This document shows positions 17,431-41,661 of a stretch of DNA of 57,792 bases, in pieces. The stretch is from NCBI GenBank assembly GCA_944326515.1, contig CALVEI010000005.1:1-57792 (forward strand). The letters are read 5' to 3'. The notes below the pieces were generated by a model. The model worked only from the letters and a program-made list of their open reading frames with translations, had not been told where the DNA came from and ran no database searches. Numbering within the stretch: position 1 is the first letter of the stretch; each line of letters opens with the position of its first letter. The DNA comes from Candidatus Gastranaerophilales bacterium. GTDB lineage: Bacteria > Cyanobacteriota > Vampirovibrionia > Gastranaerophilales > Gastranaerophilaceae. The position numbers were made by a program, and so were the translations under genes.

Positions 17431-17940
17431 TTATTTATCCCAAAGAGCATCAGTAAACTTCCAATTATTTTGCATCAAGTCCATTGCATCATCTTGAGGC
17501 TCAACCTTATCAGAATCTTGATTACCCATATCTTCTTTTTTAGCAAAAGTTAAAAGAAACTTGAAGATATCTTTACCTTCAGTGTTAGGTTCTTTTTTAG
17601 GTCCATTTACATCAGCAGTAAAATCACATTTTGTAGAAGTACAGCTTACAGTTAACTCCATACCATCTCTTGTTAAACCGGTTGAATCGTCAATTTTAAG
17701 CTGTTCCTCAATATATTTCTGAGCATCAGAACCCCACTTATATGGCGGTCCATTTTTAACAATGGCCTGATCAACAGCCTCATTAAATGTAAAGTAAGCT
17801 TTTTGTGCACCTCTTTCAAAAGTTGTTCTTTGTGAAAACCTCTTTAAATTTGGAATTGTAAGCATCGCAATAACACCAATAATCAACATTACAAGCGCTA
17901 ACTCTGCAAACGTAAATGCTTTTCTATTCAATAAAGACAT
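17431..17940 (-). CDS. Prepilin-like protein (type IV pilin/pseudopilin N-terminus)
   Basis: A class III prepilin N-terminus, KAFTFAELALVMLIIGVIAM: cleavage expected after Ala8 (Gly is usual), Phe as the new first residue, and Glu at +5. One hydrophobic helix is followed by a 130-residue soluble domain with two cysteines (near 100 and 105) and an acidic C-terminus. The family uses a membrane prepilin peptidase and assembles into pili or type II secretion fibres; which one is unknown, as no assembly gene is nearby. AAAGGTC precedes the ATG. It lies 11 nt after the thioredoxin-like gene. Confidence 0.82.
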   Translation of the reverse strand: MSLLNRKAFTFAELALVMLIIGVIAMLTIPNLKRFSQRTTFERGAQKAYFTFNEAVDQAIVKNGPPYKWGSDAQKYIEEQLKIDDSTGLTRDGMELTVSCTSTKCDFTADVNGPKKEPNTEGKDIFKFLLTFAKKEDMGNQDSDKVEPQDDAMDLMQNNWKFTDALWDK

Positions 17941-21135: not shown

Positions 21136-24100
21136 CTACTTACCAACCTTGATTTGCAAACCGCCTGAGAAACCTATACCTGTTCTTCCACCATTTCTGA
21201 TTGTGAACTGAATAAATCCATTAAAGCGATCTTTAAAGGTTTTAGAAACACCCAAACCATATTCAAAGTATGAATGTCTCATTCTTACATAGCCAAGATC
21301 AATATTACCAGCTCTGCCATCTACACCACCCATAATATTGTAAACCATTTGAGCGGTTGCATAGATGTTAAATGTTTTCTTTTGCCATATCAAGTTAAAT
21401 CCAGGAGCAACGTTAATACCATTGAGCATACCTGAACTCATACTCAATACACCAAAGTCAGAGCCCCAATTTTGAGAGCCGAATGCATTATATGCAGCCA
21501 TTAATGTTGGTTGGAAAATGAAATCAGCAGGCAAGTGAATATTGTACGCTGTTTTAGAAGCAACACCAGCAAACCAATTGCCTGTATTGTCACTACCTGA
21601 ACCAAATTCACCACTCATTGACATATCATTAGCATAGCCTCCACCATAAGCTAATAATGAAGTAATGAAGTTACCTTTATATGCAGTACCCATTAAGCCC
21701 AATTGAGCTCCGTTTTGATACATACTAACACCTCTAAAGTGTTGGTGTGCACCATTATAACCAACATAAGCAGTAGGAACTAAATTCCATCCGTTTTTAA
21801 GTTTGATAAGCGGGAAGTCAGCACCAATTAAAGAACCGTATGCATTGTTGCCTACGCTCAAACCTCTTGTCATTGAAAGACGTTCAAAGTTACCATAAGC
21901 TTTATACCAGAGGCTTCCACCTTTTAAATCATATTGATAAGGTGCAAACTGTGGTTGAGCAGAAGCATATTTGTTTGCTGTCTTTTGGTCATCCATCAAT
22001 TGTCTTGTTATGACATCCATATGGTCGAATAACATATTGTTAACAACCAATTGATTTTGCCAAGATGCAATTGTTGCAACCTGACCTCTATATTGTTGAG
22101 GGTTGAGATAAACAAGAGAACCAGTTAAATTAGGTCCGCCTGCTGAACCGTTAGTTAGGTAATAACGACCCATTGCAGTATTTGCATAAAATGCCGTTGG
22201 ATCATAGTATGGTTGATCTTGAGGATTTCTTTGTTGAATCAATCTGTCAGCATCTAAACTAAATGTTCTGTCAGCAGGTGATGTAACAAAGTTAATACCT
22301 GTAATCAACAATGGAGAGTTTTTATCATTGATAAAGCTATCAACAATAATTGTGTCCATCTTATTGCTATGAGGATCATAGTCAAATGCAACAGGTAATT
22401 TGCCATCTTTTAGGTTTTCACCCAATATCAAATCACCTGCAACATCAATTGTATTGGCGTAATTACCAATCAAACTTAATGACGAATTACCGTCAATATT
22501 CCAATTACCGCCAATAGTTGTATTACCAGCAATTGAGGTAATTGTATTATTTACATCAAGGTTTCCTCCAATATTTGTATTTTTACCTAACAAGTATAAA
22601 CCTGACTGAGTTCCATCTTGTGCATTTGCAATAACATTGCCATCAAATTGAGTTTGATTAGCAATAATGCTCAAATTAGCACTTGCAGAATTAGAACCGA
22701 CAGTCAAATTACCTGTTTGTCTTAAATCGTCACCTTTTTTGAAAATAACTTTGTCTTTATTAGTAAAATTCAAAGTTCCTTCTTTAACATTTACTTCCCC
22801 TGTCATATCAATAGCAGAAGAAATATTTGTTGCAGCAAGTCCTTCTTTATAGATAGAACCACCGCCAACGATTGTTGGGTTATAGTTAACAACGGCATTA
22901 TCATTAATGAAATTCAAAATTGCAGTGTCTTCCATTGTCAAAGTTGAATCATCTTTGATAAATGCGTTATCGCCATAAGAAAGCATTGTGTCTCTCTTAA
23001 GCAAGATATCACCGTTAACACCTGTATAATTACTAAAACCAATATCAATAATACCGTTTTCTTTTCTTTCAAATACAGCTGTGCCGTTTGGTGTTTCAAA
23101 AATAGTTCCGTTTGAAAGAATCAAACCACCATTATTGATATTGATTTGTTTTAAAGAGTCAACATCAACAGTACCATCTGCTTTTAAGATATTGTTGTAA
23201 TACAAGTTGTTTTGGTTAATTAACTCATCAATATCAACAAGCTCAACGCCATCTTGAGTAAAGATTTTATCTTCTACAAAAACTCGACCGTGTGGAGTTG
23301 AAACACCAGCATTTGCTGTTTTATCAAAGTTTGTAACTGTTATATCAGAACCCAACAAAGAACCTTTTTCAAGGTATAAATCACCTGATGTTTCTTTAAT
23401 AATTTTGTTAGGATCATTGTCATCAACATCTATAAAACCGGTAATTTCATTTTTAATACCACCAAAGAAAGTAGATCCAGACTTAACAGTTACACGACCT
23501 GCAGCTTGAACAAAGTTACCTTTAAAACCTGATTGGTCACCATATATATTAATATTCGGAGAGCCTGTTTCTCTGTCATCTTTCATAACAGCTATAGAAC
23601 CATCGCCTGTTACGATTGTATGCCAATCAAGATTTTGAGAAACAAGACCCAAATAACCATCTTTTTCAACATCTATTTCACTGCCTTTTTGGGCAACAGA
23701 ACCTGTACCAAAAGCAAGCTCAGCCCCGTTTGAAACTGATACTTCAGCATCAGAAGCTAAACCAGAACCTGTTCTTAAAGTAATTACAGCATCTTTATCA
23801 TCATCGCCAACACCGTTACCAACAATATTTTGAACACCATGCAATATTGCATTTTCTAAAATACCATTAGTAAAGACAAAGCCTTCTGTAGTTTTATCAC
23901 CAATGTATAAAATATTACCATCTACAAACTTGGCGTTATCTCGACCATCCAAATTCAACACAGGAGTTTTTAAATCTCCTGCTGACAAGTACTGATTTCC
24001 TGATAATTCAACGTCTTTGCCTTCAGCAAGTTTTGCATCTTGTTTGAACAACAATTTACCATGTTCAATCAAGTTTTTTTCAACTCCACCAAAGAAAATT

Positions 24101-27100
24101 GAATCTTTTTCCGCAACAACTGTACCGCCTGTTTGATGATAAGAACCTTCAAACGCTGAGTTATTACTTGTTCTTTTGATTGTTGTTGTACCTTGAGAAA
24201 TATTTACATTACCTTGTCCTTCTATACTACCGGAAATAGTTACTTTGGAATTGTTATCAAATTTTTCAGGATTAACTGTTGTATCATCAGCAATAGTACC
24301 GATGTTCAGATTAGCACCTGCAGCAATTTTAGTTGTAGAACCTTCTACAAGTTCAGCACCGTCTTTTAAGTTCAACGTACCATTTTTTATTTCACTATTT
24401 TTAAAGAATTTACCAAAAACATTAGTAATAAGTTTCTCATCAGCACCCAAAGAAATATTTTCTTGTTTGAAAGTTCCGTTAAAGTTTTCGAATAAATCGT
24501 TTTCTCCAACATTTACAAGGTTTAAAGAACCTTCACCAGAGTGAAGAACCAAACCTTGCCCTTCTATTGCAAAAGTAACATCAGTGTTTTTATTGTTACC
24601 TTCTTCAGAAAATAACTCCAATGTTGCAGCATCTGAATTTATAGTAATTTTATTATCTTTTAAGTTATTAGTATTGGTAAAATCACCGATTCTAATAGTA
24701 CCCGTACCATCTATAATATTTTGCCCTGCTAACGTTACAGCATTGTCAACAGAATCACCTGCTGTTACATCAACAATACCAGCAGAAATTGTATTCTTAC
24801 CGCCAAAGAAAGAATTGCCTGCTTTAACAGTAGTTGTACCGGAACCTGTTTGATTATAACTACCTGTATAACCATGCTGTTTAGCTGATATCGTCACATT
24901 ACCTGTTGATGCATTATTAATATTTCCGCCTTCAACAGTATTTTTAATACTAATGTTTAAAACAAAAGCTGTATCCTTGATATTTAAATCACCGCCATTT
25001 AAGACAATTTTTGTTGTATCGGTTTCACCAATAATCGCATCACCAATAATCGCATCATTTATATTAAAAGATGAACCTGCATCTATTTGGTTTTGTCCTA
25101 AAATTTCAGCACCGTTACCAAAGTCAACAGAGCTGTTTTGAGTAATCAGGTTTTGTCCGTTAAAGAATTTACCGCCTTCAAATTTAGTTTTTCTGTTGCT
25201 TTGAAGATAATTACCGACAAAACCACTGTTATCAGACGTAAACACTAATATTTTAGAATAATCAGCATCAGTAGTATTGGATTTTCTGTCGACATATATC
25301 TTACCGTCACCGCTTAAATCCATTTCGAATTTTCCGCCGGATGTATAAGTATACCCGCTTCCGTCATGGCCTAATTTATACATAGTATCAGCGTCTATTG
25401 TTAAATCAGAGCCTTTGTTTATGGTTAATGTGGAACCGTCGGCAGCAACTGAACCGTCTTCCATTGTTATATGTGCAATTTTGCCTTGTTCACCGCCTAA
25501 TTCATAATGAGCAGTACCCGCAAAACCAGCTTTTTCTGCTAATTTCAAATTAGAATTACTTATCGTTATAGGTGCGTCAGTTGTACCATTATCAAAAATG
25601 GTTTCTGTCATTCTTACATTCGTAAGAACAAAACTGCCACCATCAACGGCTACTTTGTTTCCATCAGTAATTGTATAGCCTTTATCACCATTACCGATAG
25701 TCAATTTAACATCTTCACCTGTAATTTCTATGTCAGAAGAAAGTTTCGCACCGTCTCTGAAGATGAAATTACCATCCATAATGTCGTTGTTGCCACCAAA
25801 GAATGTCCCACCAGTTACTTCAGTAGTACCGTTATTTTGGATAAAATCGCCAACATACTTTGACATATCTCCATTAACAACAAGATATGTATCCTCGCCG
25901 ATGACCTTTATTGTGCCGGTTCCGATTACTGTTCCTTCTATGTGAGATTCTTTACCGTTAGAAGTAGGAACACCATACTGGTCAACAGTATCCGACAAAC
26001 CATTGTTAGAAATATTAATAGTTGTTTTGTCTAAATTAAGTTCTTTTCCGCTTTCAAGAACAATCTGTCCTTTATCATAAATATTAACAGTTGTATTAGT
26101 CAGCTTGCTGTTGCCACCAAAGAACTTGCCTCCTGTAACATTAGCAGCATCGACATCAGCTCCAATACCCTGTTGTCCAATGTTGATTGTTCCTGCTGTC
26201 ATATTAAAGTTGCCATCAAAACCTGATTGGTCACCAGAAATACCAAGAGAATTACCATTCATTGTGATAGTTGCTGAAGAATTATCACCTGTAATATTTC
26301 CATTAGTTAAATTCAGATTTTGGTTAATGTTAACATCACCGCCTGTAATATTTAAATTTGCACCTTGAGCAATAGAGCTGCCGCCTTCAATAGTAACACT
26401 ACCATCTGAGATATTTGAAGTTCCCTTAAAAGTAGCACCTGTTGCAGTTAATGTGCCTCCTGTCATTTTTTCAAGTCCATCTAACACAGCGTTATTTAAA
26501 GCAATACTACCAGCAGAAAGTGTTGTTTTGTCACCATAAAAAGTAACACCACTGCCGATATTAACACTACCGCCATTAATTATATTTGTTGCACTCGCAT
26601 TATTTGACGTATTAATATTGACTATACCGCCGGAAATTGTATTAGTACCTGCCAGTGTAGAACCGTTCTCTAAAGTAACGACAGTATTTTCTCCTGAAAT
26701 ATTGTTTGTACCTGACAAAGTAGCATTATTTTTTACAGTAACTTTACCACCGGAAATATTATTATTTCCGCTAAAAGATTTAGTTTCTACAGTACCGTCA
26801 CCGATTGTTAAGAAACCGCTAACTTGCTCATAAGTTCCATTAAATACGGAATTGTCACCTGTTAACAGCAAATCAGCATTACTGTCTAAAACAATTTTAC
26901 CCGTACCTGTCACATTTCCTGTTAGGTTAGTATCATTATTAATAGAGATAGTTGTGTCAGTCCCACTAAGAGCAATTTTAGAGCCGTCTATTGCATTTGC
27001 CGCAGCAACAACCAACTGTCCACCTTTGATTTGATGAGTATTATTGCCACCAAAGAATGTACCACCAGTTACTTCAGTAGTACCGTTATTTTGGATAAAA

Positions 27101-29226
27101 TCGCCAACATACTTTGACATATCTCCATTAACAACAAGATATGTATCCTCGCCGATGACCTTTATTGTGCCGGTTCCGATTACTGTTCCTTCTATGTGAG
27201 ATTCTTTACCGTTAGAAGTAGGAACACCATACTGGTCAACAGTATCCGACAAACCATTGTTAGAAATATTAATAGTTGTTTTGTCTAAATTAAGTTCTTT
27301 TCCGCTTTCAAGAACAATCTGTCCTTTATCATAAATATTAACAGTTGTATTAGTCAGCTTGCTGTTGCCACCAAAGAACTTGCCTCCTGTAACATTAGCA
27401 GCATCGACATCAGCTCCAATACCCTGTTGTCCAATGTTGATTGTTCCTGCTGTCATATTAAAGTTGCCATCAAAACCTGATTGGTCACCAGAAATACCAA
27501 GAGAATTACCATTCATTGTGATAGTTGCTGAAGAATTATCACCTGTAATATTTCCATTAGTTAAATTCAGATTTTGGTTAATGTTAACATCACCGCCTGT
27601 AATATTTAAATTTGCACCTTGAGCAATAGAGCTGCCGCCTTCAATAGTAACACTACCATCTGAGATATTTGAAGTTCCCTTAAAAGTAGCACCTGTTGCA
27701 GTTAATGTGCCTCCTGTCATTTTTTCAAGTCCATCTAACACAGCGTTATTTAAAGCAATACTACCAGCAGAAAGTGTTGTTTTGTCACCATAAAAAGTAA
27801 CACCACTGCCGATATTAACACTACCGCCATTAATTATATTTGTTGCACTCGCATTATTTGACGTATTAATATTGACTATACCGCCGGAAATTGTATTAGT
27901 ACCTGCCAGTGTAGAACCGTTCTCTAAAGTAACGACAGTATTTTCTCCTGAAATATTGTTTGTACCTGACAAAGTAGCATTATTTTTTACAGTAACTTTA
28001 CCACCGGAAATATTATTATTTCCGCTAAAAGATTTAGTTTCTACAGTACCGTCACCTATCACCAAATTACCTGATGACTGAGAATAAGTACCGTTAAAAA
28101 TACTCTGATCATTCAACAAAGTCAACGTAACATCGTTATTATCTAAAGTAATATTTCCGTTTCCGCTTATATTTCCGTTCATTGTAGTATCAGCATCAAC
28201 ATTAATATTAGCGTCATTGTTGATTGCAATTTTAGAGCCGTCTATTGCATTTGCCGCAGCAAGAACCAATTCTCCACCATTAATTTGATGAATATTGCTA
28301 CCGCCAAAGAAAGTACCGTTAACTACTGTTGAACCTGCAGTTTGAGTATAAGAGCCTTCATAATTAGCGTTTTGAGAACCGGCCTCTAATGTCAAATTTC
28401 CGCTATTTACTATAGTCGCATTTTCTGACCCTGCTATACCACTACCAATACTAACAGTACCACTGGTGTTCAAAGCAGCATCGCCATCTAAATATATATC
28501 ATTTGCACCATTCTTATCAGTGTTCCCTGAAAAAGTAGCATCACCTATATTAATAGAACCAGCTCCTGAATAGATAGCCCCACCTATACCACCAGTTACA
28601 CGATTACCAGAGAATATAGAGTTTACGTTACTCAAATCAATAACAGGAGTCCCACCGGGTCTTGTTTGTAGATTTAGTATCGCCCCACCGTCACCAACTG
28701 CTGTGTTATTTTCAAAACGAACAGTTGCACCGTCCTTAAAAGAAATATTGCCATCAAAGTTAACAATAGCTCCACCGCCAAAAAAGTGATTAACAGAGTC
28801 AACTGCACTTGTGGAAGTGTTACCAATAAAAGAAGTATTTCCATTAAACTTAACCGTGCCTTCATTGTAAATGGCACCACCACGATTGGCTGTATTCTTT
28901 TCAAAAGTCGAATTGCCAATAACATTAACTGTTTGACTTATGTTATAAGCCCCGTTGTAGATACCACCACCGGCGTCAACAGCCTGATTTCCAGTATATG
29001 ATTGAGATTCTCCATTTAAGTTAACATTTTTGCCGCTATAATAATTACTAACAGCCCCTTGTTTACCACCGGTAATACCAGTCATCTCACCTACAGTATA
29101 ATCTGTAGTTTCTGTATTTGGTCTGACTAAAATCTGCCCGCTCGTATCAGAAAAAGCTGCACCACCCGACATTGCACACAGAAGCAAAAAAGACGCCACC
29201 ATTCGCTTTGTTTTGGTTTTACTCAT
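21136..29226 (-). CDS. Giant autotransporter (type Va) with repetitive passenger
   Basis: A 2696-residue surface protein. A signal peptide (1-26, MSKTKTKRMVASFLLLCAMS, cut near AAFS) leads into an Asn/Gly/Thr/Ser-rich passenger predicted to be a beta-helix. It ends in an autotransporter beta-barrel of about residues 2436-2696 (starts SLWYKAYGNF, ends GLQIKVGK). The passenger repeats a motif of about G.Y.Q..G...V..G..FFGG.N.I at least eight times. Residues about 391-728 recur almost identically at 809-1146. The last residue is Lys, whereas many such barrels end in an aromatic. An AGGAG site lies 7 nt upstream of the ATG. No passenger enzyme domain is seen; adhesion is a guess. Confidence 0.92.
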   Translation of the reverse strand: MSKTKTKRMVASFLLLCAMSGGAAFSDTSGQILVRPNTETTDYTVGEMTGITGGKQGAVSNYYSGKNVNLNGESQSYTGNQAVDAGGGIYNGAYNISQTVNVIGNSTFEKNTANRGGAIYNEGTVKFNGNTSFIGNTSTSAVDSVNHFFGGGAIVNFDGNISFKDGATVRFENNTAVGDGGAILNLQTRPGGTPVIDLSNVNSIFSGNRVTGGIGGAIYSGAGSINIGDATFSGNTDKNGANDIYLDGDAALNTSGTVSIGSGIAGSENATIVNSGNLTLEAGSQNANYEGSYTQTAGSTVVNGTFFGGSNIHQINGGELVLAAANAIDGSKIAINNDANINVDADTTMNGNISGNGNITLDNNDVTLTLLNDQSIFNGTYSQSSGNLVIGDGTVETKSFSGNNNISGGKVTVKNNATLSGTNNISGENTVVTLENGSTLAGTNTISGGIVNINTSNNASATNIINGGSVNIGSGVTFYGDKTTLSAGSIALNNAVLDGLEKMTGGTLTATGATFKGTSNISDGSVTIEGGSSIAQGANLNITGGDVNINQNLNLTNGNITGDNSSATITMNGNSLGISGDQSGFDGNFNMTAGTINIGQQGIGADVDAANVTGGKFFGGNSKLTNTTVNIYDKGQIVLESGKELNLDKTTINISNNGLSDTVDQYGVPTSNGKESHIEGTVIGTGTIKVIGEDTYLVVNGDMSKYVGDFIQNNGTTEVTGGTFFGGNNTHQIKGGQLVVAAANAIDGSKIALSGTDTTISINNDTNLTGNVTGTGKIVLDSNADLLLTGDNSVFNGTYEQVSGFLTIGDGTVETKSFSGNNNISGGKVTVKNNATLSGTNNISGENTVVTLENGSTLAGTNTISGGIVNINTSNNASATNIINGGSVNIGSGVTFYGDKTTLSAGSIALNNAVLDGLEKMTGGTLTATGATFKGTSNISDGSVTIEGGSSIAQGANLNITGGDVNINQNLNLTNGNITGDNSSATITMNGNSLGISGDQSGFDGNFNMTAGTINIGQQGIGADVDAANVTGGKFFGGNSKLTNTTVNIYDKGQIVLESGKELNLDKTTINISNNGLSDTVDQYGVPTSNGKESHIEGTVIGTGTIKVIGEDTYLVVNGDMSKYVGDFIQNNGTTEVTGGTFFGGNNDIMDGNFIFRDGAKLSSDIEITGEDVKLTIGNGDKGYTITDGNKVAVDGGSFVLTNVRMTETIFDNGTTDAPITISNSNLKLAEKAGFAGTAHYELGGEQGKIAHITMEDGSVAADGSTLTINKGSDLTIDADTMYKLGHDGSGYTYTSGGKFEMDLSGDGKIYVDRKSNTTDADYSKILVFTSDNSGFVGNYLQSNRKTKFEGGKFFNGQNLITQNSSVDFGNGAEILGQNQIDAGSSFNINDAIIGDAIIGETDTTKIVLNGGDLNIKDTAFVLNISIKNTVEGGNINNASTGNVTISAKQHGYTGSYNQTGSGTTTVKAGNSFFGGKNTISAGIVDVTAGDSVDNAVTLAGQNIIDGTGTIRIGDFTNTNNLKDNKITINSDAATLELFSEEGNNKNTDVTFAIEGQGLVLHSGEGSLNLVNVGENDLFENFNGTFKQENISLGADEKLITNVFGKFFKNSEIKNGTLNLKDGAELVEGSTTKIAAGANLNIGTIADDTTVNPEKFDNNSKVTISGSIEGQGNVNISQGTTTIKRTSNNSAFEGSYHQTGGTVVAEKDSIFFGGVEKNLIEHGKLLFKQDAKLAEGKDVELSGNQYLSAGDLKTPVLNLDGRDNAKFVDGNILYIGDKTTEGFVFTNGILENAILHGVQNIVGNGVGDDDKDAVITLRTGSGLASDAEVSVSNGAELAFGTGSVAQKGSEIDVEKDGYLGLVSQNLDWHTIVTGDGSIAVMKDDRETGSPNINIYGDQSGFKGNFVQAAGRVTVKSGSTFFGGIKNEITGFIDVDDNDPNKIIKETSGDLYLEKGSLLGSDITVTNFDKTANAGVSTPHGRVFVEDKIFTQDGVELVDIDELINQNNLYYNNILKADGTVDVDSLKQININNGGLILSNGTIFETPNGTAVFERKENGIIDIGFSNYTGVNGDILLKRDTMLSYGDNAFIKDDSTLTMEDTAILNFINDNAVVNYNPTIVGGGSIYKEGLAATNISSAIDMTGEVNVKEGTLNFTNKDKVIFKKGDDLRQTGNLTVGSNSASANLSIIANQTQFDGNVIANAQDGTQSGLYLLGKNTNIGGNLDVNNTITSIAGNTTIGGNWNIDGNSSLSLIGNYANTIDVAGDLILGENLKDGKLPVAFDYDPHSNKMDTIIVDSFINDKNSPLLITGINFVTSPADRTFSLDADRLIQQRNPQDQPYYDPTAFYANTAMGRYYLTNGSAGGPNLTGSLVYLNPQQYRGQVATIASWQNQLVVNNMLFDHMDVITRQLMDDQKTANKYASAQPQFAPYQYDLKGGSLWYKAYGNFERLSMTRGLSVGNNAYGSLIGADFPLIKLKNGWNLVPTAYVGYNGAHQHFRGVSMYQNGAQLGLMGTAYKGNFITSLLAYGGGYANDMSMSGEFGSGSDNTGNWFAGVASKTAYNIHLPADFIFQPTLMAAYNAFGSQNWGSDFGVLSMSSGMLNGINVAPGFNLIWQKKTFNIYATAQMVYNIMGGVDGRAGNIDLGYVRMRHSYFEYGLGVSKTFKDRFNGFIQFTIRNGGRTGIGFSGGLQIKVGK
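25026..25055. repeat. 15-bp perfect tandem repeat inside the autotransporter
   Basis: CACCAATAATCGCAT occurs twice head to tail, encoding a doubled DAIIG segment. It keeps the reading frame and looks like a small slippage event. Confidence 0.85.
25790..26802. repeat. Large direct repeat, copy 2 (autotransporter residues about 809-1146)
   Basis: About 1013 bp matching 27044-28056 at an offset of exactly 1254 bp. I saw one difference, near the edge (25807 C versus 27061 A), on reading the aligned lines; a full alignment was not run. Confidence 0.93.
27044..28056. repeat. Large direct repeat, copy 1 (autotransporter residues about 391-728)
   Basis: Matches 25790-26802. The segments that precede each copy in the coding direction (28057 to about 28300 and 26803-27043) are clearly related but diverged, apart from a short identical stretch around 28227-28260 / 26973-27006. 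Confidence 0.93.
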
Positions 29227-29444: not shown

Positions 29445-30170
29445 TTATATATTTGCGCCGCCGTCTTTTTTCATTTTTTCTAGAGCTTTTTTCGCACCAG
29501 AACTTTCTTTTGCAAGATTTATTACAAAATCAGCAGCCTCAGAATCACGTGCAATGGCCTCTTTTAGAGCCAATATTTCTTCTATGCTCATTTCTTTAAC
29601 ATCTTCGTCTGACATTTCCTCAAGATTATCTTTAAACAACTCTTGAGCTTTCATATCATAACCAGGCAAATTCTTTTTAAACCCATACCACATATGGAAT
29701 TGATGCAGCATAAAATATATATTTATGTCCAAGTCTCTTAGAACAAACATTTCTCTTGTTTCAAAAGAAAATTTTAACTTTTTTTCAACAAGCAAACCTA
29801 TCATAAAATTCAAATAAAATGCTTTTCTTCCTTTTAATGGTGTTATAAAGCCTTCTTCTTCTTTTATTTTTGCAAGAATTTTATCGGCGTTTTTCATTTT
29901 ATAAACAGGAGTACCCTGTTCTTTTACAAAATCAAGGAGCTTGTCAGGATTTGTTAAACAAGATTTTACGATATTTTTTAATTCCGCATCCATAGTCTCA
30001 AGAATTTTTTCTGTTTCTGTTGTCAAAGTTAAAGTTTCAGATGCGTTAATATGAGTTTTAGATGTAGAATTTGTATATGTACGAGGTTTAAGCTTTTCCA
30101 TCGTCTGGGCAAGCTTTTGTTTTCTTCGTTCAAGAATATAATTTACTATTTTATTGATAAATTTAGCCAT
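29445..30170 (-). CDS. Hypothetical protein, 241 aa
   Basis: I do not recognise a family. It is soluble, Lys/Glu-rich and largely helical by eye, with no signal peptide. The N-terminus is basic (about 1-30); a Ser/Thr-rich linker follows (31-50); the C-terminal third is Glu/Lys/Met-rich. It begins 18 nt after the second chromate-transporter gene. It has no Shine-Dalgarno, and its ATG is preceded by TGTTAAAAT plus 6 nt, identical in layout to lptC. This suggests its own leaderless transcript. Confidence 0.75.
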   Translation of the reverse strand: MAKFINKIVNYILERRKQKLAQTMEKLKPRTYTNSTSKTHINASETLTLTTETEKILETMDAELKNIVKSCLTNPDKLLDFVKEQGTPVYKMKNADKILAKIKEEEGFITPLKGRKAFYLNFMIGLLVEKKLKFSFETREMFVLRDLDINIYFMLHQFHMWYGFKKNLPGYDMKAQELFKDNLEEMSDEDVKEMSIEEILALKEAIARDSEAADFVINLAKESSGAKKALEKMKKDGGANI

Positions 30171-30176
30171 AATTTT

Positions 30177-30185
30177 ATTTTAACA
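30177..30185 (-). promoter_or_regulatory. Extended -10 box, candidate leaderless promoter
   Basis: On the minus strand TGTTAAAAT (TGn plus TAAAAT) is followed by AAAATT and then the ATG at 30170. The -10 to start distance predicts transcription from the A of ATG. Confidence 0.5.
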
Positions 30186-33391: not shown

Positions 33392-33417
33392 ATTCTTTAA
33401 TTTTATTAAATAAATTG

Positions 33418-33423
33418 TATAAT
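33418..33423 (+). promoter_or_regulatory. -10 box 6 nt before xerC start, candidate leaderless promoter
   Basis: TATAAT, then CATACT, then the ATG at 33430. No Shine-Dalgarno and only a weak -35. Confidence 0.45.
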
Positions 33424-33429
33424 CATACT

Positions 33430-34344
33430 ATGGGACTAAGTGAGATTACAAAAAGATATTTAAAAGATTTTTTAATCTATCTGGAAGTGGAAAAAAACTT
33501 TTCCAAACACACTATCCGTGCATATCAATCAGATATTTTAAGCTTTCTTCTTTGGTTAGATAACACACCAATAGAAGAAACCAACCATACAAAATTAAAA
33601 GATTATCTTGTCTTTATACAACGATTTAATTACTCAAAAACAACCCTGTCTAGAAAAATTGCAGCAATAAGAACATTCTATAGATTTTTGTACAGAGAAA
33701 AAATCATAGAAACAAACCCTGCAAACAGTGTGCATGCACCAAAAAGAAATAAAAGCTTGCCTAAATTTTTAACAGGGCAAGAAATTGAGCAAATTTTAAA
33801 TAATATAAAAATCGATACCCCGGCAGGTTACAGAAACAGAGTGATTTTAGAACTGCTTTACGCTACTGGTATGCGTGTATCAGAATTAAGCAACTTAAAT
33901 TTTGGCAACCTTAACCTAGCAGAAAATGAAATAACAGTAATGGGAAAAGGGGCTAAAGAAAGAATTGTACTTGTTTCATCAAGAGCAAAAGACTTTTTAG
34001 AAAAATATCTAAAAACCGTACGTTTTATGATACCTGAAGAAGGAACAAAAATAGAAGAAAACGAAAATAGCCCGATATTCATAAACAAAACAGGTTTTAG
34101 ACTTCAGCCGCAAAGCATTAGAACAGCAATAAACGATATAGTAAAAAAAATAGAACTGCCTAAAAAAGTAACGCCTCACGTATTCAGACACAGCTTTGCA
34201 ACAAAGCTTTTGGAAAACGGAGCAGACCTTAGAGTTGTACAAGAGCTTTTGGGGCACGCATCTATATCTAACACACAAATTTATACACACGTATCGACAG
34301 AAAGACTTAAAGCGGTGTATGATAGTACTCACCCACGGGCATAA
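33430..34344 (+). CDS. xerC: Tyrosine recombinase, XerC/XerD-like
   Basis: A site-specific recombinase, probably for resolving chromosome dimers. It has an N-terminal SAM-like core-binding domain (about 1-95) and a catalytic domain with Arg149 (TGMRVSEL), a Lys in GKGAKER, His250 and Arg253 (HVFRHSFA), His276 (LLGHAS) and Tyr285 (IYTHVS). The 304-aa length fits Xer, not phage integrases. A 15-nt upstream in-frame ATG (33415) is possible, but neither start has a Shine-Dalgarno. XerC versus XerD cannot be told here. Confidence 0.88.
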   Translation: MGLSEITKRYLKDFLIYLEVEKNFSKHTIRAYQSDILSFLLWLDNTPIEETNHTKLKDYLVFIQRFNYSKTTLSRKIAAIRTFYRFLYREKIIETNPANSVHAPKRNKSLPKFLTGQEIEQILNNIKIDTPAGYRNRVILELLYATGMRVSELSNLNFGNLNLAENEITVMGKGAKERIVLVSSRAKDFLEKYLKTVRFMIPEEGTKIEENENSPIFINKTGFRLQPQSIRTAINDIVKKIELPKKVTPHVFRHSFATKLLENGADLRVVQELLGHASISNTQIYTHVSTERLKAVYDSTHPRA

Positions 34345-35844: not shown

Positions 35845-36816
35845 TTAAATATCATTTTGTTTGTTTTGAATATTTCTTATAACAGTTTTTACGTTTCCTT
35901 CTGCAAAGAAATTTTTAGGATTAATATACATTTTTATTCTATCAGCTTCTATAGAACGCATTTGTTCAACAATAGTAGAACGACCTATAAATATAATTTC
36001 ATTAGGTTTATTTGTTTTTGGATCAGGATAAACAGTTGCTTTAGGACCTTTAGCATCATAATCTTTGTATATTACATGAACCTTGCCTGATGCTTGAATA
36101 ACATTTGTAGCTTTGTAATACTCTTGACGATCTGACCAAACATTTATACGGGTACCGTCCATATCAACATCGCTATGAGCATTTCCTAAACCATATGCAA
36201 CTTCTTTAACAGCATCATAAATAAACTTGTCTGCAGTAATAACGCTATCTTTCTGTTTCAAACGCCCGTGACCTGTTAACGTAATTTTTTGCAAATCACC
36301 TGATTGGTTCAAATTAGCAACAGCTGAATCAGAAAATGTCTCAACATCTTTATAATATATAATTACACCACCGTGAGCAGTAAGAGTTTTAGTCTTAGTA
36401 TCATAAGATTGTGCATCCGCTGTAATTATAACAGTGGGTTTCATTCCATCTTTTGGTGTAACTGTTGTTTGTGTATTGCCTTCTGCTTTTATTGTTTTGT
36501 TAAGCAAAGACATCTTTAAGATATTAGCTTTTATCTCATTTGTTTTATCCTGTTTAACTTGAACAACATAAGGCTTGTCATACATAACCGCATCAGTCAA
36601 CTGCTTTGATTTTGGATCAATAAAAACCTCTGCTCTTGGAGATTTTGCATTTATATCATCCATTTTTACTCTAACATTGCCTTCAAATTTGGCTTTATTT
36701 TCTTCCATCTTAAAAGTTTGTCTGTCTGACTCTATAGACAAATCAGCAGCTAACGCAATACCTGTAAGAGCTATTAAAACACCTGATAATATAAATACTT
36801 TTTTAAATTTTTCCAT
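35845..36816 (-). CDS. lptA: LPS transport periplasmic protein LptA/OstA-like
   Basis: Forms the periplasmic bridge that carries LPS to the outer membrane. A signal peptide ends near ALAA (about residue 23), followed by repeated OstA-type strands such as KAKFEGNVRVK, ADAQSYDTKTKTLTAHGGV and NFFAEGNVK. At 323 aa it is about twice the E. coli LptA, with two OstA-like halves. The ATG at 36816 has AAGGGGA upstream; a TTG directly before it is a poorer start. It overlaps lptC by 14 nt. Confidence 0.88.
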   Translation of the reverse strand: MEKFKKVFILSGVLIALTGIALAADLSIESDRQTFKMEENKAKFEGNVRVKMDDINAKSPRAEVFIDPKSKQLTDAVMYDKPYVVQVKQDKTNEIKANILKMSLLNKTIKAEGNTQTTVTPKDGMKPTVIITADAQSYDTKTKTLTAHGGVIIYYKDVETFSDSAVANLNQSGDLQKITLTGHGRLKQKDSVITADKFIYDAVKEVAYGLGNAHSDVDMDGTRINVWSDRQEYYKATNVIQASGKVHVIYKDYDAKGPKATVYPDPKTNKPNEIIFIGRSTIVEQMRSIEADRIKMYINPKNFFAEGNVKTVIRNIQNKQNDI

Positions 36817-37384
36817 CAAAATTCCCCTTGCTGTACAGTTCGGTTCTAGAACGACCTTTTATTTTTACTTCTGTCATTTGATTACTCAAAGCAGCTTCAT
36901 TACTATAAGTTTTTATTTCGCCGCTTTTTCTTATTACAACATTACCCTGTGCGGTAATATCCTTATCACTGCCTTGCCAAACAAAACGATCAGCTCTAAC
37001 ATCTGTTCCATCTTTATAAATAAAATATGAATCATCGTAAAGAACGACTTTTTTCTTTTCTTCACTGTACGTTCCCATAGAAGATTCCATACTGAGAACA
37101 ACTTCACCTTTATCATAAAAATTGCCTATTACATTGTACAATATAACAACCTTGTTTTGATTGTCATAGTACCCCTTTTCAGCATATAATTCCCAATATT
37201 TTTTATCTTCTTTTGTTTCGGTAATTATCAAATTCTTGACGTTAACTTCCTGCTTTTCTCCTGCATTTTGTAACGCCTCTTTTTTAAAGTTTCTTGTAAT
37301 AACACCTGCGGCAATGAATGCCCAAGCACAACCTATAACTACCGTAAGTAAAATTACTATATATGCTATCTTTCGTTTAGACAT
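36803..37384 (-). CDS. lptC: LPS export protein LptC
   Basis: A single-span inner-membrane protein (helix about 7-28) with a periplasmic beta-jellyroll that passes LPS from LptB2FG to LptA. It has 193 aa. The LYAEKGYYDNQNKVVILYNVIGNF and GTDVRADRFVWQGSDKDITAQGNVVI stretches are LptC-like. The ATG has no Shine-Dalgarno and is preceded by TGTTAAAAT plus 6 nt. Confidence 0.88.
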   Translation of the reverse strand: MSKRKIAYIVILLTVVIGCAWAFIAAGVITRNFKKEALQNAGEKQEVNVKNLIITETKEDKKYWELYAEKGYYDNQNKVVILYNVIGNFYDKGEVVLSMESSMGTYSEEKKKVVLYDDSYFIYKDGTDVRADRFVWQGSDKDITAQGNVVIRKSGEIKTYSNEAALSNQMTEVKIKGRSRTELYSKGNFDGKI

Positions 37385-37390
37385 GCAAAT

Positions 37391-37399
37391 ATTTTAACA
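37391..37399 (-). promoter_or_regulatory. Extended -10 box, candidate leaderless promoter of lptC
   Basis: Minus-strand TGTTAAAAT (37391-37399), then ATTTGC, then the ATG at 37384. Confidence 0.5.
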
Positions 37400-37526
37400 C
37401 GAATCAAAAAACAAAATTACCGTTGTAACAAAATATTTCAATAAAAAAATTTTTTCACCAAAAATAACAAATTTTTTTATTTACTGATTTAATAATTATT
37501 ACTAGCAGAAATTTTTGGAATAACAA

Positions 37527-38978
37527 ATGATTAAATTATTTTCACACATCTCTTTTAGAGGTATTCCTCAAAAAGAATCAGACAAAAACACAGAAAAAGT
37601 CAAAACAACAACCACACCTAATACGCTTGAAAGAACACCATCAATAGATACATTTGTTCCAACTGTTGAAACTGCATCTGCAGCAAGAGCTAAAAAAGCA
37701 AACGCATTAACACAGGCTCAAACGCTCAGAGACTACGAACTTGTAAAAAAAGAAGGATTATTTAATGATGAACTACTTTTTCTTTTACAACCAAAAACAA
37801 CAGCAAGCGGTTCAAAAACATTCACACCAAATCAAACAAAAATAATAAATCTTGCAGCAAAGAAAATTTCTTTTTATAAGGGTATTGCAAAAAGACTTGA
37901 AACATCGGGTACAGAATCCATTGATAGAGTAATAAAAGATATAAAAACTGTCTTTGGTGGAGAAAAAAATTACGGAAAATATCTCAAAGCAAGAAGTAAA
38001 AACGGTAAACCAACATCGAAAGAAGCCGTTTCTATATACAACAAAATAACAAAAGAATTTCTAGACAAAAAAATAAATGGTGAGGTTATGAACATTTTTG
38101 CAAAACGTTTATACCAAAAGCCATATAAACTATTGGATAAAACAGAAAAAGAACTCGTAAAACTTTCTATAATGGATGGAGATGTAAAACTTGATTCAAG
38201 AGACTACAAAGTTCTCGAAAAAGTCTTAGGTACTTCTAAAAAAGACTACGAAGAAGCCGTAGACTGGATAAAAGACTTAATAGGCTTAAGAATGATTATT
38301 CCGGAAGATGCGGATATGAACAAGGCTGCAGAATACCTAACAAAAGCAATTTTATCAGGAAAGCTTAACGTAACAAGAGTTAGCAACTACCACTCAAAAC
38401 ACATTTACCCATACATAAGCCAAGATACCGTAAAATTATGGAAACAATCAGTCCCAGGTATTGAGCTTGTACAATCAAATGCGATAAGAAAGAAAAACGG
38501 TTACACAACAACCCAAATGAATATATTGCATGAAATAAAAGACAAAAACGGAAAGGTAAGACCTGTTTGGGTAGAATTGCAAATAAGAAGTGAGCAACTA
38601 AATAAAATAGGCCAAATTGAGCACTTAATATACGATATTTTGGCTAATAAAAACATAGGTAAAAATATTCCTGAGCTGGAAAAATATTACGAAACAATTG
38701 GTATCAAAAAAGCAGTAAAAGAAGTTTTTGGTAATCCTACAAAAGAAAATGCTTACGTTGACTACGAAAGAGCAATGTATTCTTGGATCAGACACAATGA
38801 AAATCCAAAATCAAAAGCAATACTTTCTTACGACAAACCAATTCTTACAGAATTTGGACTGGGTGAATACGAACATCTTTTGAGCTTTGAATCACTAGAC
38901 AGAATTGACGAAACAGCCACACTTTTAAAAGCAAAATACGGAAAACCCACACACACTGGCACGAAAGAAAAAAAATAA
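37527..38978 (+). CDS. Divergent RelA/SpoT-fold nucleotidyltransferase
   Basis: A 483-aa protein. Residues 1-60 are a Thr/Lys/Ser-rich leader; 60-150 are helical. From about 150 to 370 the order of motifs follows the RelA/SpoT synthetase domain: KARSKNG...SIYNKI (154-174), DLIGLRMII (250-258; Asp250 and Arg255), KKNGYTTTQMN (322-332, matching the NGYqSlH loop but with Gln for His) and VELQIRS (349-355, Glu350), then HLIYDIL. No HD hydrolase or TGS/ACT domain is present. A long insert separates the first two motifs. It may make (p)ppGpp-type alarmones or pyrophosphorylate another target such as tRNA. Probably cotranscribed with the 138-aa gene 28 nt downstream. Confidence 0.72.
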   Translation: MIKLFSHISFRGIPQKESDKNTEKVKTTTTPNTLERTPSIDTFVPTVETASAARAKKANALTQAQTLRDYELVKKEGLFNDELLFLLQPKTTASGSKTFTPNQTKIINLAAKKISFYKGIAKRLETSGTESIDRVIKDIKTVFGGEKNYGKYLKARSKNGKPTSKEAVSIYNKITKEFLDKKINGEVMNIFAKRLYQKPYKLLDKTEKELVKLSIMDGDVKLDSRDYKVLEKVLGTSKKDYEEAVDWIKDLIGLRMIIPEDADMNKAAEYLTKAILSGKLNVTRVSNYHSKHIYPYISQDTVKLWKQSVPGIELVQSNAIRKKNGYTTTQMNILHEIKDKNGKVRPVWVELQIRSEQLNKIGQIEHLIYDILANKNIGKNIPELEKYYETIGIKKAVKEVFGNPTKENAYVDYERAMYSWIRHNENPKSKAILSYDKPILTEFGLGEYEHLLSFESLDRIDETATLLKAKYGKPTHTGTKEKK

Positions 38979-39428: not shown

Positions 39429-40463
39429 TTATTTTTTCATTCTAAAACCAAAATCAACAGAAATTGTTCTGCCGATGGAAGAAAATTTCTCGGATAAAAA
39501 CTTTCTATAATCATCCGCTGATATATGTTCTCCCGATTTACCGGGATATATTATATATTTCTGTTTACACTCATCACCAGTTACATTAGGCATAACAACA
39601 TTTGCACCGCTTTGTAATGCCAAAATACGACCGTTTGATTGAATTGTCTCCATAGCTGTTGTTGCAGGAATATTTATATCGGGTAACAGAATCCTTGTTA
39701 TTGCCATAACTTTCAATGCAAGGTATAAATTGCCAATTTTGCTATCTTGCAAAGGAGTTTGAGGACAAGGAATAAAAGGTCCCAAACCTACCATATCCGC
39801 ATCAATATTTTTAAAAAACAAAATATCATCAGCCAATGATTCAATACTCTGATTTGGTAAACCAACAAGACAACCTGTGCCAGTTTCAAACCCCACTTCT
39901 TTCAGATTTTCAAGACACTTAACTCTATTTTCAAAACTCATATTAGGGTGCAAAGACTCATACAAATCCTTGTCCGTAGTTTCTATCCTGAGCAAATATC
40001 TGTCAGCACCTGCATCTTTGTATAATTTATATTCTTCAAAAGTTTTTTCCCCAAGACTCAAAGTAACAGCCAAATCCAATTTTTTGATTGCTTCTATAAT
40101 TTCACACATCTTATCTGCACTGAAAAAAGCATCTTCACCTGACTGTAAAACGACAGTCTTATAATCAAGATTTTTTGCAACATTTGCCAAGCGCAAGACT
40201 TCTTCAAAAGACATTCTGTATCGAGAAACTGATAAATTATCCTTTCTTAACCCGCAATAAAAACAATTGCATCTGCATATATTTGAAAATTCAATCAAAC
40301 CTCTTAGGTGAATTTCATTTCCAACATATTTTTGACGAACATTGTCTGCTGTTTTGAACAAAAATTCGTTTATCGAATCATCTTTCAATATTGAAATAAT
40401 TTCAGCCTTCGTCAAAGTATGAGTATTCTCTGATTCAGCAATTATTTCACTAAACTCAGTCAA
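39429..40463 (-). CDS. hydE: [FeFe]-hydrogenase maturation radical SAM enzyme HydE
   Basis: A radical SAM enzyme needed to build the H-cluster of [FeFe]-hydrogenase. The cluster motif CxxxCxxC is in CRCNCFYCGLR; GETGCLVGLPNQ-like and ANVVMPNVTGDECKQKY stretches support HydE over biotin synthase. I start at the TTG at 40463 because GGAGG lies 5 nt before it; an upstream TTG (40478) would add five residues. It is about 344 aa and overlaps mnmA by 8 nt. HydF, HydG and the hydrogenase lie elsewhere. Confidence 0.88.
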   Translation of the reverse strand: MTEFSEIIAESENTHTLTKAEIISILKDDSINEFLFKTADNVRQKYVGNEIHLRGLIEFSNICRCNCFYCGLRKDNLSVSRYRMSFEEVLRLANVAKNLDYKTVVLQSGEDAFFSADKMCEIIEAIKKLDLAVTLSLGEKTFEEYKLYKDAGADRYLLRIETTDKDLYESLHPNMSFENRVKCLENLKEVGFETGTGCLVGLPNQSIESLADDILFFKNIDADMVGLGPFIPCPQTPLQDSKIGNLYLALKVMAITRILLPDINIPATTAMETIQSNGRILALQSGANVVMPNVTGDECKQKYIIYPGKSGEHISADDYRKFLSEKFSSIGRTISVDFGFRMKK

Positions 40464-41517
40464 TCCACCCTCCGCCAATTAAGTGCTTGTCAAAAACATC
40501 GTAAAAAACAGCAGCCTGACCTGATGTAACGGATGTAATCGGCTCATCAAAAAATATTTCTGCACAGCTTCTATCTTCTGTTAAAACGACACGAGCTTTT
40601 TGTGCCTGCATGTTATATCTTATTTTAACTAAAGCGTCAAACTCTAAAGCTTCACAAGGATATTGAAACTTAACATCACTGATATGACAGGATTTTTCGT
40701 ACAAATCTTCTTTAGTTCCAACATAAACTATATTTTTTTCAGCATCTAGTTTTACAACATACAAAGGTTCCTCAAAAGCAATGCCAATACCTTTTCTTTG
40801 ACCGATTGTATATTGATAAAATCCATCGTGAACGCCCAATTTTCGGCCATCTTTTATATAGATAAAATCACCTTTTTTATGTCCAAGCTTTTCGGTTATA
40901 TATTTTTTTGTTGTCATCGGTTTTGTAATAAAACAAATGTCCTGACTTTCTTTTGATGATTTTGAAGGCAAATCATTATCAATTGCAATTTGTCTAATTT
41001 CTTCTTTTACATAATCACAAAGCGGAAACAAAATTCGGCTAAGATGTCTTTGATTAAGCTCAAAAAGATAATACTGCTGGTCTTTTTTTTCATCCTTTGC
41101 GGGATACATCTTCTTAATACCATTGTCATCAATAATCCGCGCATAATGACCAGAAGCAACATAGTCACACCCAAGTGTGTCTATAGCATAATCAAAAAGT
41201 CTTCCCCATTTTATTGTTCTGTTACAAAGTATACAAGGGTTAGGCGTTTTACCTTTGCGATAAGAATCTTCAAAATAATCAATTACATCTTTTTTAAATT
41301 CATTGCTCAAATCCAAAACATAAATAGGAATACCTATTTTTTGAGCAACAGCACGTGCATTTTTAACGATACAGTCAAACTTATCATCATTTACCATTTT
41401 TACAGTAACTGCACAAACATCATACCCTTGCTGTTTTAACAGATGACAAGTTACACTGCTGTCTAATCCGCCTGAAAGCGCTACCGCTACTTTTTTGTTC
41501 ATAACATGTGAATTCAT
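40456..41517 (-). CDS. mnmA: tRNA-specific 2-thiouridylase
   Basis: Thiolates the wobble uridine (s2U34) of tRNAs for Lys, Glu and Gln. The PP-loop SGGLDSS (15-21), catalytic Cys98 in NPCILCNR and Cys194 in QDICFI, and the GIGQRKG-like region (YTIGQRKGIGIAF) are present. It has 353 aa. No Shine-Dalgarno lies before the ATG at 41517; instead a TATAAT sits 6 nt upstream. A second in-frame ATG at 41502 is possible. Confidence 0.96.
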   Translation of the reverse strand: MNSHVMNKKVAVALSGGLDSSVTCHLLKQQGYDVCAVTVKMVNDDKFDCIVKNARAVAQKIGIPIYVLDLSNEFKKDVIDYFEDSYRKGKTPNPCILCNRTIKWGRLFDYAIDTLGCDYVASGHYARIIDDNGIKKMYPAKDEKKDQQYYLFELNQRHLSRILFPLCDYVKEEIRQIAIDNDLPSKSSKESQDICFITKPMTTKKYITEKLGHKKGDFIYIKDGRKLGVHDGFYQYTIGQRKGIGIAFEEPLYVVKLDAEKNIVYVGTKEDLYEKSCHISDVKFQYPCEALEFDALVKIRYNMQAQKARVVLTEDRSCAEIFFDEPITSVTSGQAAVFYDVFDKHLIGGGWID

Positions 41518-41523
41518 ATAATT

Positions 41524-41529
41524 ATTATA
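41524..41529 (-). promoter_or_regulatory. -10 box 6 nt before mnmA start, candidate leaderless promoter
   Basis: Minus-strand TATAAT, then AATTAT, then ATG. The -35 is poor. Confidence 0.5.
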
Positions 41530-41661
41530 GATTAAAACATCTTATATTGAAATTTAAAAATTTTTACCCTAAATGTTAAGAAACTTTCAATCACTACTTG
41601 ATATCATAGTATGTTTAAAGTAGTGTATAGTAAGAAACTAATCTTTGAAAGGAATATAAAA

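Follow-up and report, generated by a model that had tools for sequence, protein, structure and literature searches.

Sequence evidence for leaderless transcription of lptC and a minority of other genes in a family of Gastranaerophilales

In one family of the Gastranaerophilales, gut bacteria that are related to Cyanobacteria and known mostly from metagenome-assembled genomes (MAGs), lptC and a minority of other genes very probably undergo sigma-70 leaderless transcription, beside ordinary genes that start with a Shine-Dalgarno (SD) sequence. This reading is built on what the genomes display: a -10 box directly before the start codon, an excess of such boxes at position -12, their -35 and TG companions, conservation among orthologues, and the presence or absence of a leader beside an unchanged box. 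The stretch of DNA analysed, hereafter the window, is 57,792 nucleotides long and belongs to a genus of 23 genomes (G000–G022); the named relatives of its lptC locus are mostly Candidatus Gastranaerophilales MAGs. The features of this locus are the following:

36803–37384, minus strand: lptC, 193 amino acids, with the mRNA +1 predicted at its ATG (37384)
37385–37390, minus strand: spacer ATTTGC between box and start, 6 nt, without SD
37391–37399, minus strand: extended -10 box TGTTAAAAT of lptC, with the hexamer TAAAAT at 37396–37391
37385–37526, no strand assigned: divergent intergenic region of 142 bp, with the lptC promoter

The preliminary description had given the layout as TGTTAAAAT-ATTTGC-ATG on the minus strand, 37399–37382, and both the letters and the coordinates are exact; the string occurs a single time in the genome. 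In its reading frame, no start codon earlier than the ATG at 37384 is available, since a TAA lies directly upstream, and the product is LptC according to TIGR04409 (47.3 bits, cut-off 38) and PF06835. A scan of positions -20 to -5 for the 4-mers AAGG, AGGA, GGAG, GAGG and AGGT found none of them. The neighbouring gene starts at 37527 on the plus strand, so that lptC is the first gene of its transcription unit, and because the neighbour is divergent and 142 bp off, the lptC promoter most likely lies inside the gap. In this neighbour (37527–38978, 483 amino acids, otherwise unnamed), a domain of the RelA_SpoT type was recognised (PF04607, E 2.8e-7, which passes the Pfam cut-off). At a distance of 17 nt from the box, the sequence TAATTT was judged by eye not to be a good -35. 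TGTTAAAAT would be the extended -10 element of a sigma-70 promoter, with the start point on, or a few nucleotides from, the A of the lptC ATG. A spacer of 6 nt would place initiation, and hence the 5' end, on this A, and spacers of 7–9 nt would leave a leader of at most about 1–3 nt. The lptC mRNA would then be essentially without leader, and its translation would start at the 5'-terminal AUG.

There is a small chance that an extra promoter further upstream also makes a leadered lptC mRNA, which would give two isoforms and is compatible with leaderless transcription. A candidate place for it is near TGAAATATTTTGTTACA (37440–37424, minus strand), which is conserved in most loci of the genus, leaderless or leadered. 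However, the distance from TGAAATATTTTGTTACA to the lptC -10 varies across these loci, so that it is not a fixed -35, no SD stands before the lptC ATG to serve a leadered isoform, and the motif may belong to the divergent gene. It is possibly a regulator site or a part of the divergent promoter.

A genome-wide scan for -10-like hexamers at -12, which had been proposed as a check on leaderless transcription, gave a peak in genes without SD and none in genes with SD. It covered 857 kb of the 2226-kb genome, in which 766 genes were called with our own simple hexamer-score caller, and TAnnnT was counted at each offset. Because the caller takes the 5'-most starts, these counts miss any leaderless gene whose frame has a start codon further upstream, as is the case for the xerD-like gene of the window. 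TAnnnT was found at -12 in 44 of the 340 genes without SD, against a mean of 15.1 and a maximum of 24 at the other offsets (p 3e-10). When only those with an ATG and room for a promoter were taken, it was found in 28 of 129 (mean elsewhere 7.3). Genes with SD had no peak (7 of 426 at -12, mean elsewhere 15.6), and neither had operon-internal genes without SD (4 of 112, mean 3.1). The excess over background comes to about 29 of the 766 called genes, and to 13 of 149 in G044, a genome of the same family. In-frame stop codons (TAA or TAG at -12) were considered as an artefact and rejected, as hexamers of the form TA[CT]..T, which cannot be stops, peak too (in the pool of four genera, 31/340 at -12, compared with 10.1 at the remaining in-frame offsets). 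A gene-caller artefact was ruled out by the same pipeline, which gave no peak in 200 kb of E. coli K-12 (2/82 genes without SD, 0/53 with promoter room), nor in two genomes from the same class, G030 and G040.

The hexamer could also be an AT-rich translational signal of the S1 type or another non-SD type, on an mRNA with a normal leader, a type of signal that has been debated in Bacteroidetes and Cyanobacteria, and this is considered very unlikely here. In its favour, the genome has a GC content of only 33%, and the AT bias upstream of non-SD genes has been interpreted as a leaderless signal, an S1 signal or both in the portion of PMC5397173 used here. Against it, the peak occupies a single base (37 counts, with 13 at the offset before and 6 at the one after, in the promoter-type set without SD) and is lacking in the operon-internal genes, and the consensus is that of TATAAT, the inner part of the matches reading TA(A/T)AAT. 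Moreover, TTG is found exactly at -35 in 12 of 64 pooled matches and in 0–3 at every other scanned offset, which corresponds to a spacer of 17 nt, and a TG stands at -15 in 19 of these 64 matches against 20 of 276 non-matches (p 5e-6); both elements are independent of the criteria by which the -12 matches were selected. The base at -1 was T in 75% of 53 matches with ATG, compared with 58% of all 213 genes of the set.

Leaderless starts would thus form the smaller of two classes. An SD-like 4-mer was detected in 426 of the 766 genes, with a peak of SD-like sequence at -12/-11, and the 3' end of 16S rRNA reads CACCTCCTTTC in two genomes of the family, G134 and G126; together these exclude a lineage that has abandoned SD in the manner of Bacteroidetes. 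Judged from these sequences, the SD system is intact in the lineage and serves the majority class. In the window's genus, 16S matches were obtained in 2 of the 23 genomes and neither reached the 3' end, and a pattern search in seven genomes of the family did not find this end either. Its absence from the genomes of the genus is probably a gap of MAG assembly that hides the anti-SD.

The lptC layout was followed in 51 loci, namely 22 of the genus and the best-scoring 29 of 51 other matching genomes of the family. TG.TA...T was found 6–9 nt before the ATG in 44 of them. Within the genus, the spacer was 6 nt in 14 loci and 7 nt in one, and a leader of 60–72 nt was present in seven; in the best 29 of 51 from other genera it was 7 nt in 22, 8 nt in four and 9 nt in three, the spacers of 8–9 nt (7/29) counting against strict leaderlessness. 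Relative to Met1 of the window, the ATG was found at 0, -15, -18, -27 or -30 nt with the box moving in step, and hence it was concluded that its position is tied to the start codon rather than to the coding sequence. At most other positions upstream, information and identity are much lower than in the box. That TAAAAT arose by chance in AT-rich DNA and that another site in the 142-bp gap drives lptC is therefore hardly credible, even with TAnnnT occupying about 4% of the positions before genes without SD, as the motif was kept in the 44 loci while most of its surroundings eroded. These observations, with the -12 scan and the -35 and TG signals, lend good support to two earlier proposals, that lptC would be leaderless and that two start classes would coexist.

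The -12 peak in genes without SD was also observed in other genomes of the family, namely G044 (17/83, mean 4.1), G114 (8/46, mean 1.7) and, more weakly, G108 (9/66, mean 3.3). In six genomes from other families of the class, the count at -12 was nominally raised in G047 (4/29) and G049 (8/68) and not raised in G024 (3/68), G117 (2/60), G030 (0/34) and G040 (3/62); G024, G030 and G040 represent three other families, and no clear peak was seen there at the size sampled. A minority of genes that come first in their transcription units would accordingly share the layout across one Gastranaerophilales family. Reciprocal-best orthologue pairs within the family comprised six in which both members were of the leaderless type, 8 and 11 in which only one was, and 145 in which neither was (odds ratio 9.9, p 7e-4). 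As 19 of the 25 pairs with at least one leaderless-type member were not both leaderless, the state is conserved above expectation yet turns over.

It had also been claimed that the same layout recurs at four other genes of the window. With an exact 6-nt spacer, an ATG and no SD, three were found and a fourth was not:

41518–41532, minus strand: ATCTATAAT-AATTAT before the ATG at 41517 of mnmA, second leaderless candidate after lptC
40456–41517, minus strand: mnmA, tRNA 2-thiouridine(34) synthase (NF001138, 375 bits, cut-off 284)
33415–33429, plus strand: TTGTATAAT-CATACT before the ATG at 33430 of a XerC/D-type gene, third candidate
33430–34344, plus strand: XerD/XerC-type tyrosine recombinase (TIGR02225, 331.3 bits, cut-off 329.6)
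30171–30185, minus strand: TGTTAAAAT-AAAATT before the ATG at 30170 of a 241-amino-acid unnamed protein, fourth and weaker candidate

The gene at 30170 was rejected as a conserved leaderless gene, since the exact box is present in only 2 of 23 loci of the genus (G000 and G018); its orthologues in other members have TTTAAT-like or SD-type starts. Further TAnnnT matches in the window are weaker, those at 17931 (a TTG start), 35764 and 52671 overlapping SD-like sequence and that at 41623 preceding a GTG. Most neighbours had been said to possess good ribosome-binding sites, and an SD-like 4-mer was found in 30 of the 51 genes called in the window. By far the largest open reading frame of the window is a single open frame of 2696 amino acids (21136–29226, minus strand). 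A speciality of the leaderless class in envelope and tRNA-modification genes, which had been suggested, is not supported. The 12 annotated genes of the 28 strictest candidates, picked by hand and without background comparison or enrichment test, are mixed: LptC, MnmA, SmpB, HPPK, HolA, RimI, a histidine kinase, a SulP-type transporter, a GtrA-domain protein, an MnmC2-like methyltransferase (under the NCBIfam cut-off and over the Pfam one) and two without usable name.

Two of the window's candidates were compared across relatives. In the genus, TATAAT lies 6–8 nt before the xerD ATG in all 21 loci, a leaderless layout, and in the 29 best-scoring loci of other genera the last TATAAT lies 23–67 nt before the start (29/29), a leadered one. 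The same TATAAT is thus present in both groups, and the distribution of the leader is opposite to that of lptC. Upstream of xerD in the other genera (L191–L219), a nearly invariant TTGTATAAT is followed by a partly conserved A-rich leader with a CAATAA-like stretch. Of 22 mnmA loci in the genus, 14 have TATAAT exactly 6 nt before the ATG; the remaining eight have no TATAAT within 40 nt, and the preceding gene reaches the start where this was read. The lack of a box where the preceding gene abuts agrees with the idea, taken from part of PMC3160421, that a gene is leaderless only if it is operon-proximal.

The seven leadered lptC loci of the genus (G021, G012, G004, G005, G011, G007 and G009) retain TGTTAAAAT unchanged at 60–72 nt from the ATG, which is preceded by a GA-rich stretch, with AAGGA in four of the seven. 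Since these sister species carry a leader, lptC does not depend on being leaderless. In a two-gene tree of the 40 genomes that have both genes (midpoint-rooted, no support values read, G021 absent), six of the seven form one clade nested among leaderless species, and the simplest reading is that the leader was gained in this clade. Five of the seven leaders (L025, L026, L027, L029 and L033) contain an ATG exactly 7 nt downstream of the -10, and it opens a mini-ORF of 5, 5, 5, 6 or 12 codons; it is missing from the leaders of G021 and G011 (L024 and L028). Each of the seven leaders folds into a hairpin, and when they are aligned, the outer helix has changes on both sides at all five pairs; 82.9% of its cells pair, against 28.6–45.7% in slid controls, and its covariation score is 0.79 against 0.36 for shuffles, while the number of pair types is not above that of shuffles (103/500). 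Coming from seven related sequences, this covariation is suggestive and not proof. A tentative and rather doubtful scenario would be that leaderless lptC is ancestral and that the seven sister species gained a leader of 60–72 nt downstream of the unchanged promoter; in five of them the old start would now open a mini-ORF, before a hairpin and a weak-to-fair SD, and control could have passed to the leaderless mini-ORF and the hairpin. If true, leadered lptC would be a natural experiment on the origin of 5' leaders and leader peptides in a gene of LPS export.

By sequence evidence, leaderless transcription is extended here to Gastranaerophilales. With a fixed promoter and a leader present or absent, the lptC and xerD orthologues make leader evolution and the annotation of starts and promoters testable in one clade, and automated annotation that looks for a ribosome-binding site may put gene starts of this family in the wrong place. 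No report of leaderless genes was found in the open full-text literature searched for Melainabacteria, Vampirovibrio or Gastranaerophilales. Leaderless genes are a known kind, judging from the sections of PMC3160421 consulted, and Gastranaerophilales are probably a new lineage for them. According to those sections, TANNNT about 12 bp upstream marks bacterial leaderless genes (Zheng et al. 2011); in genomes of low GC content the signal resembles TATAAT, several of these have a TG peak, and SD genes are mixed in. The signal described here is alike in all these respects: TANNNT at about 12 bp, TATAAT-like, with TG and mixed with SD genes. The excess, about 4–9% of called genes, is below the rates for Deinococcus-Thermus and Actinobacteria in the same sections, where many Cyanobacteria are described with neither signal; in contrast, the TA signal and a strong SD class occur side by side in four genera of one Gastranaerophilales family. 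In excerpts of PMC5397173 and PMC9581028, Cyanobacteria are discussed as a group whose signal is weak or unknown, or which may have leaderless signals. In Epsilonproteobacteria, as far as the excerpt of PMC3847290 goes, gnTAnaAT-N5-9-ATG is found in some species and a ribosome-binding site in the orthologues of others, some genes are experimentally leaderless, and conversion to and from the leaderless state was proposed. The example region there has a -10 in one lineage and a ribosome-binding site in another, whereas here one and the same -10 persists, with or without a leader after it. In mycobacteria, leaderless mRNAs are conserved between species, and short leaderless ORFs occur upstream of annotated genes (PMC4633059, in part). 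That system belongs to another phylum, is more frequent and was shown experimentally, whereas the upstream mini-ORF proposed here, in five of seven leadered species, is predicted from the sequence.
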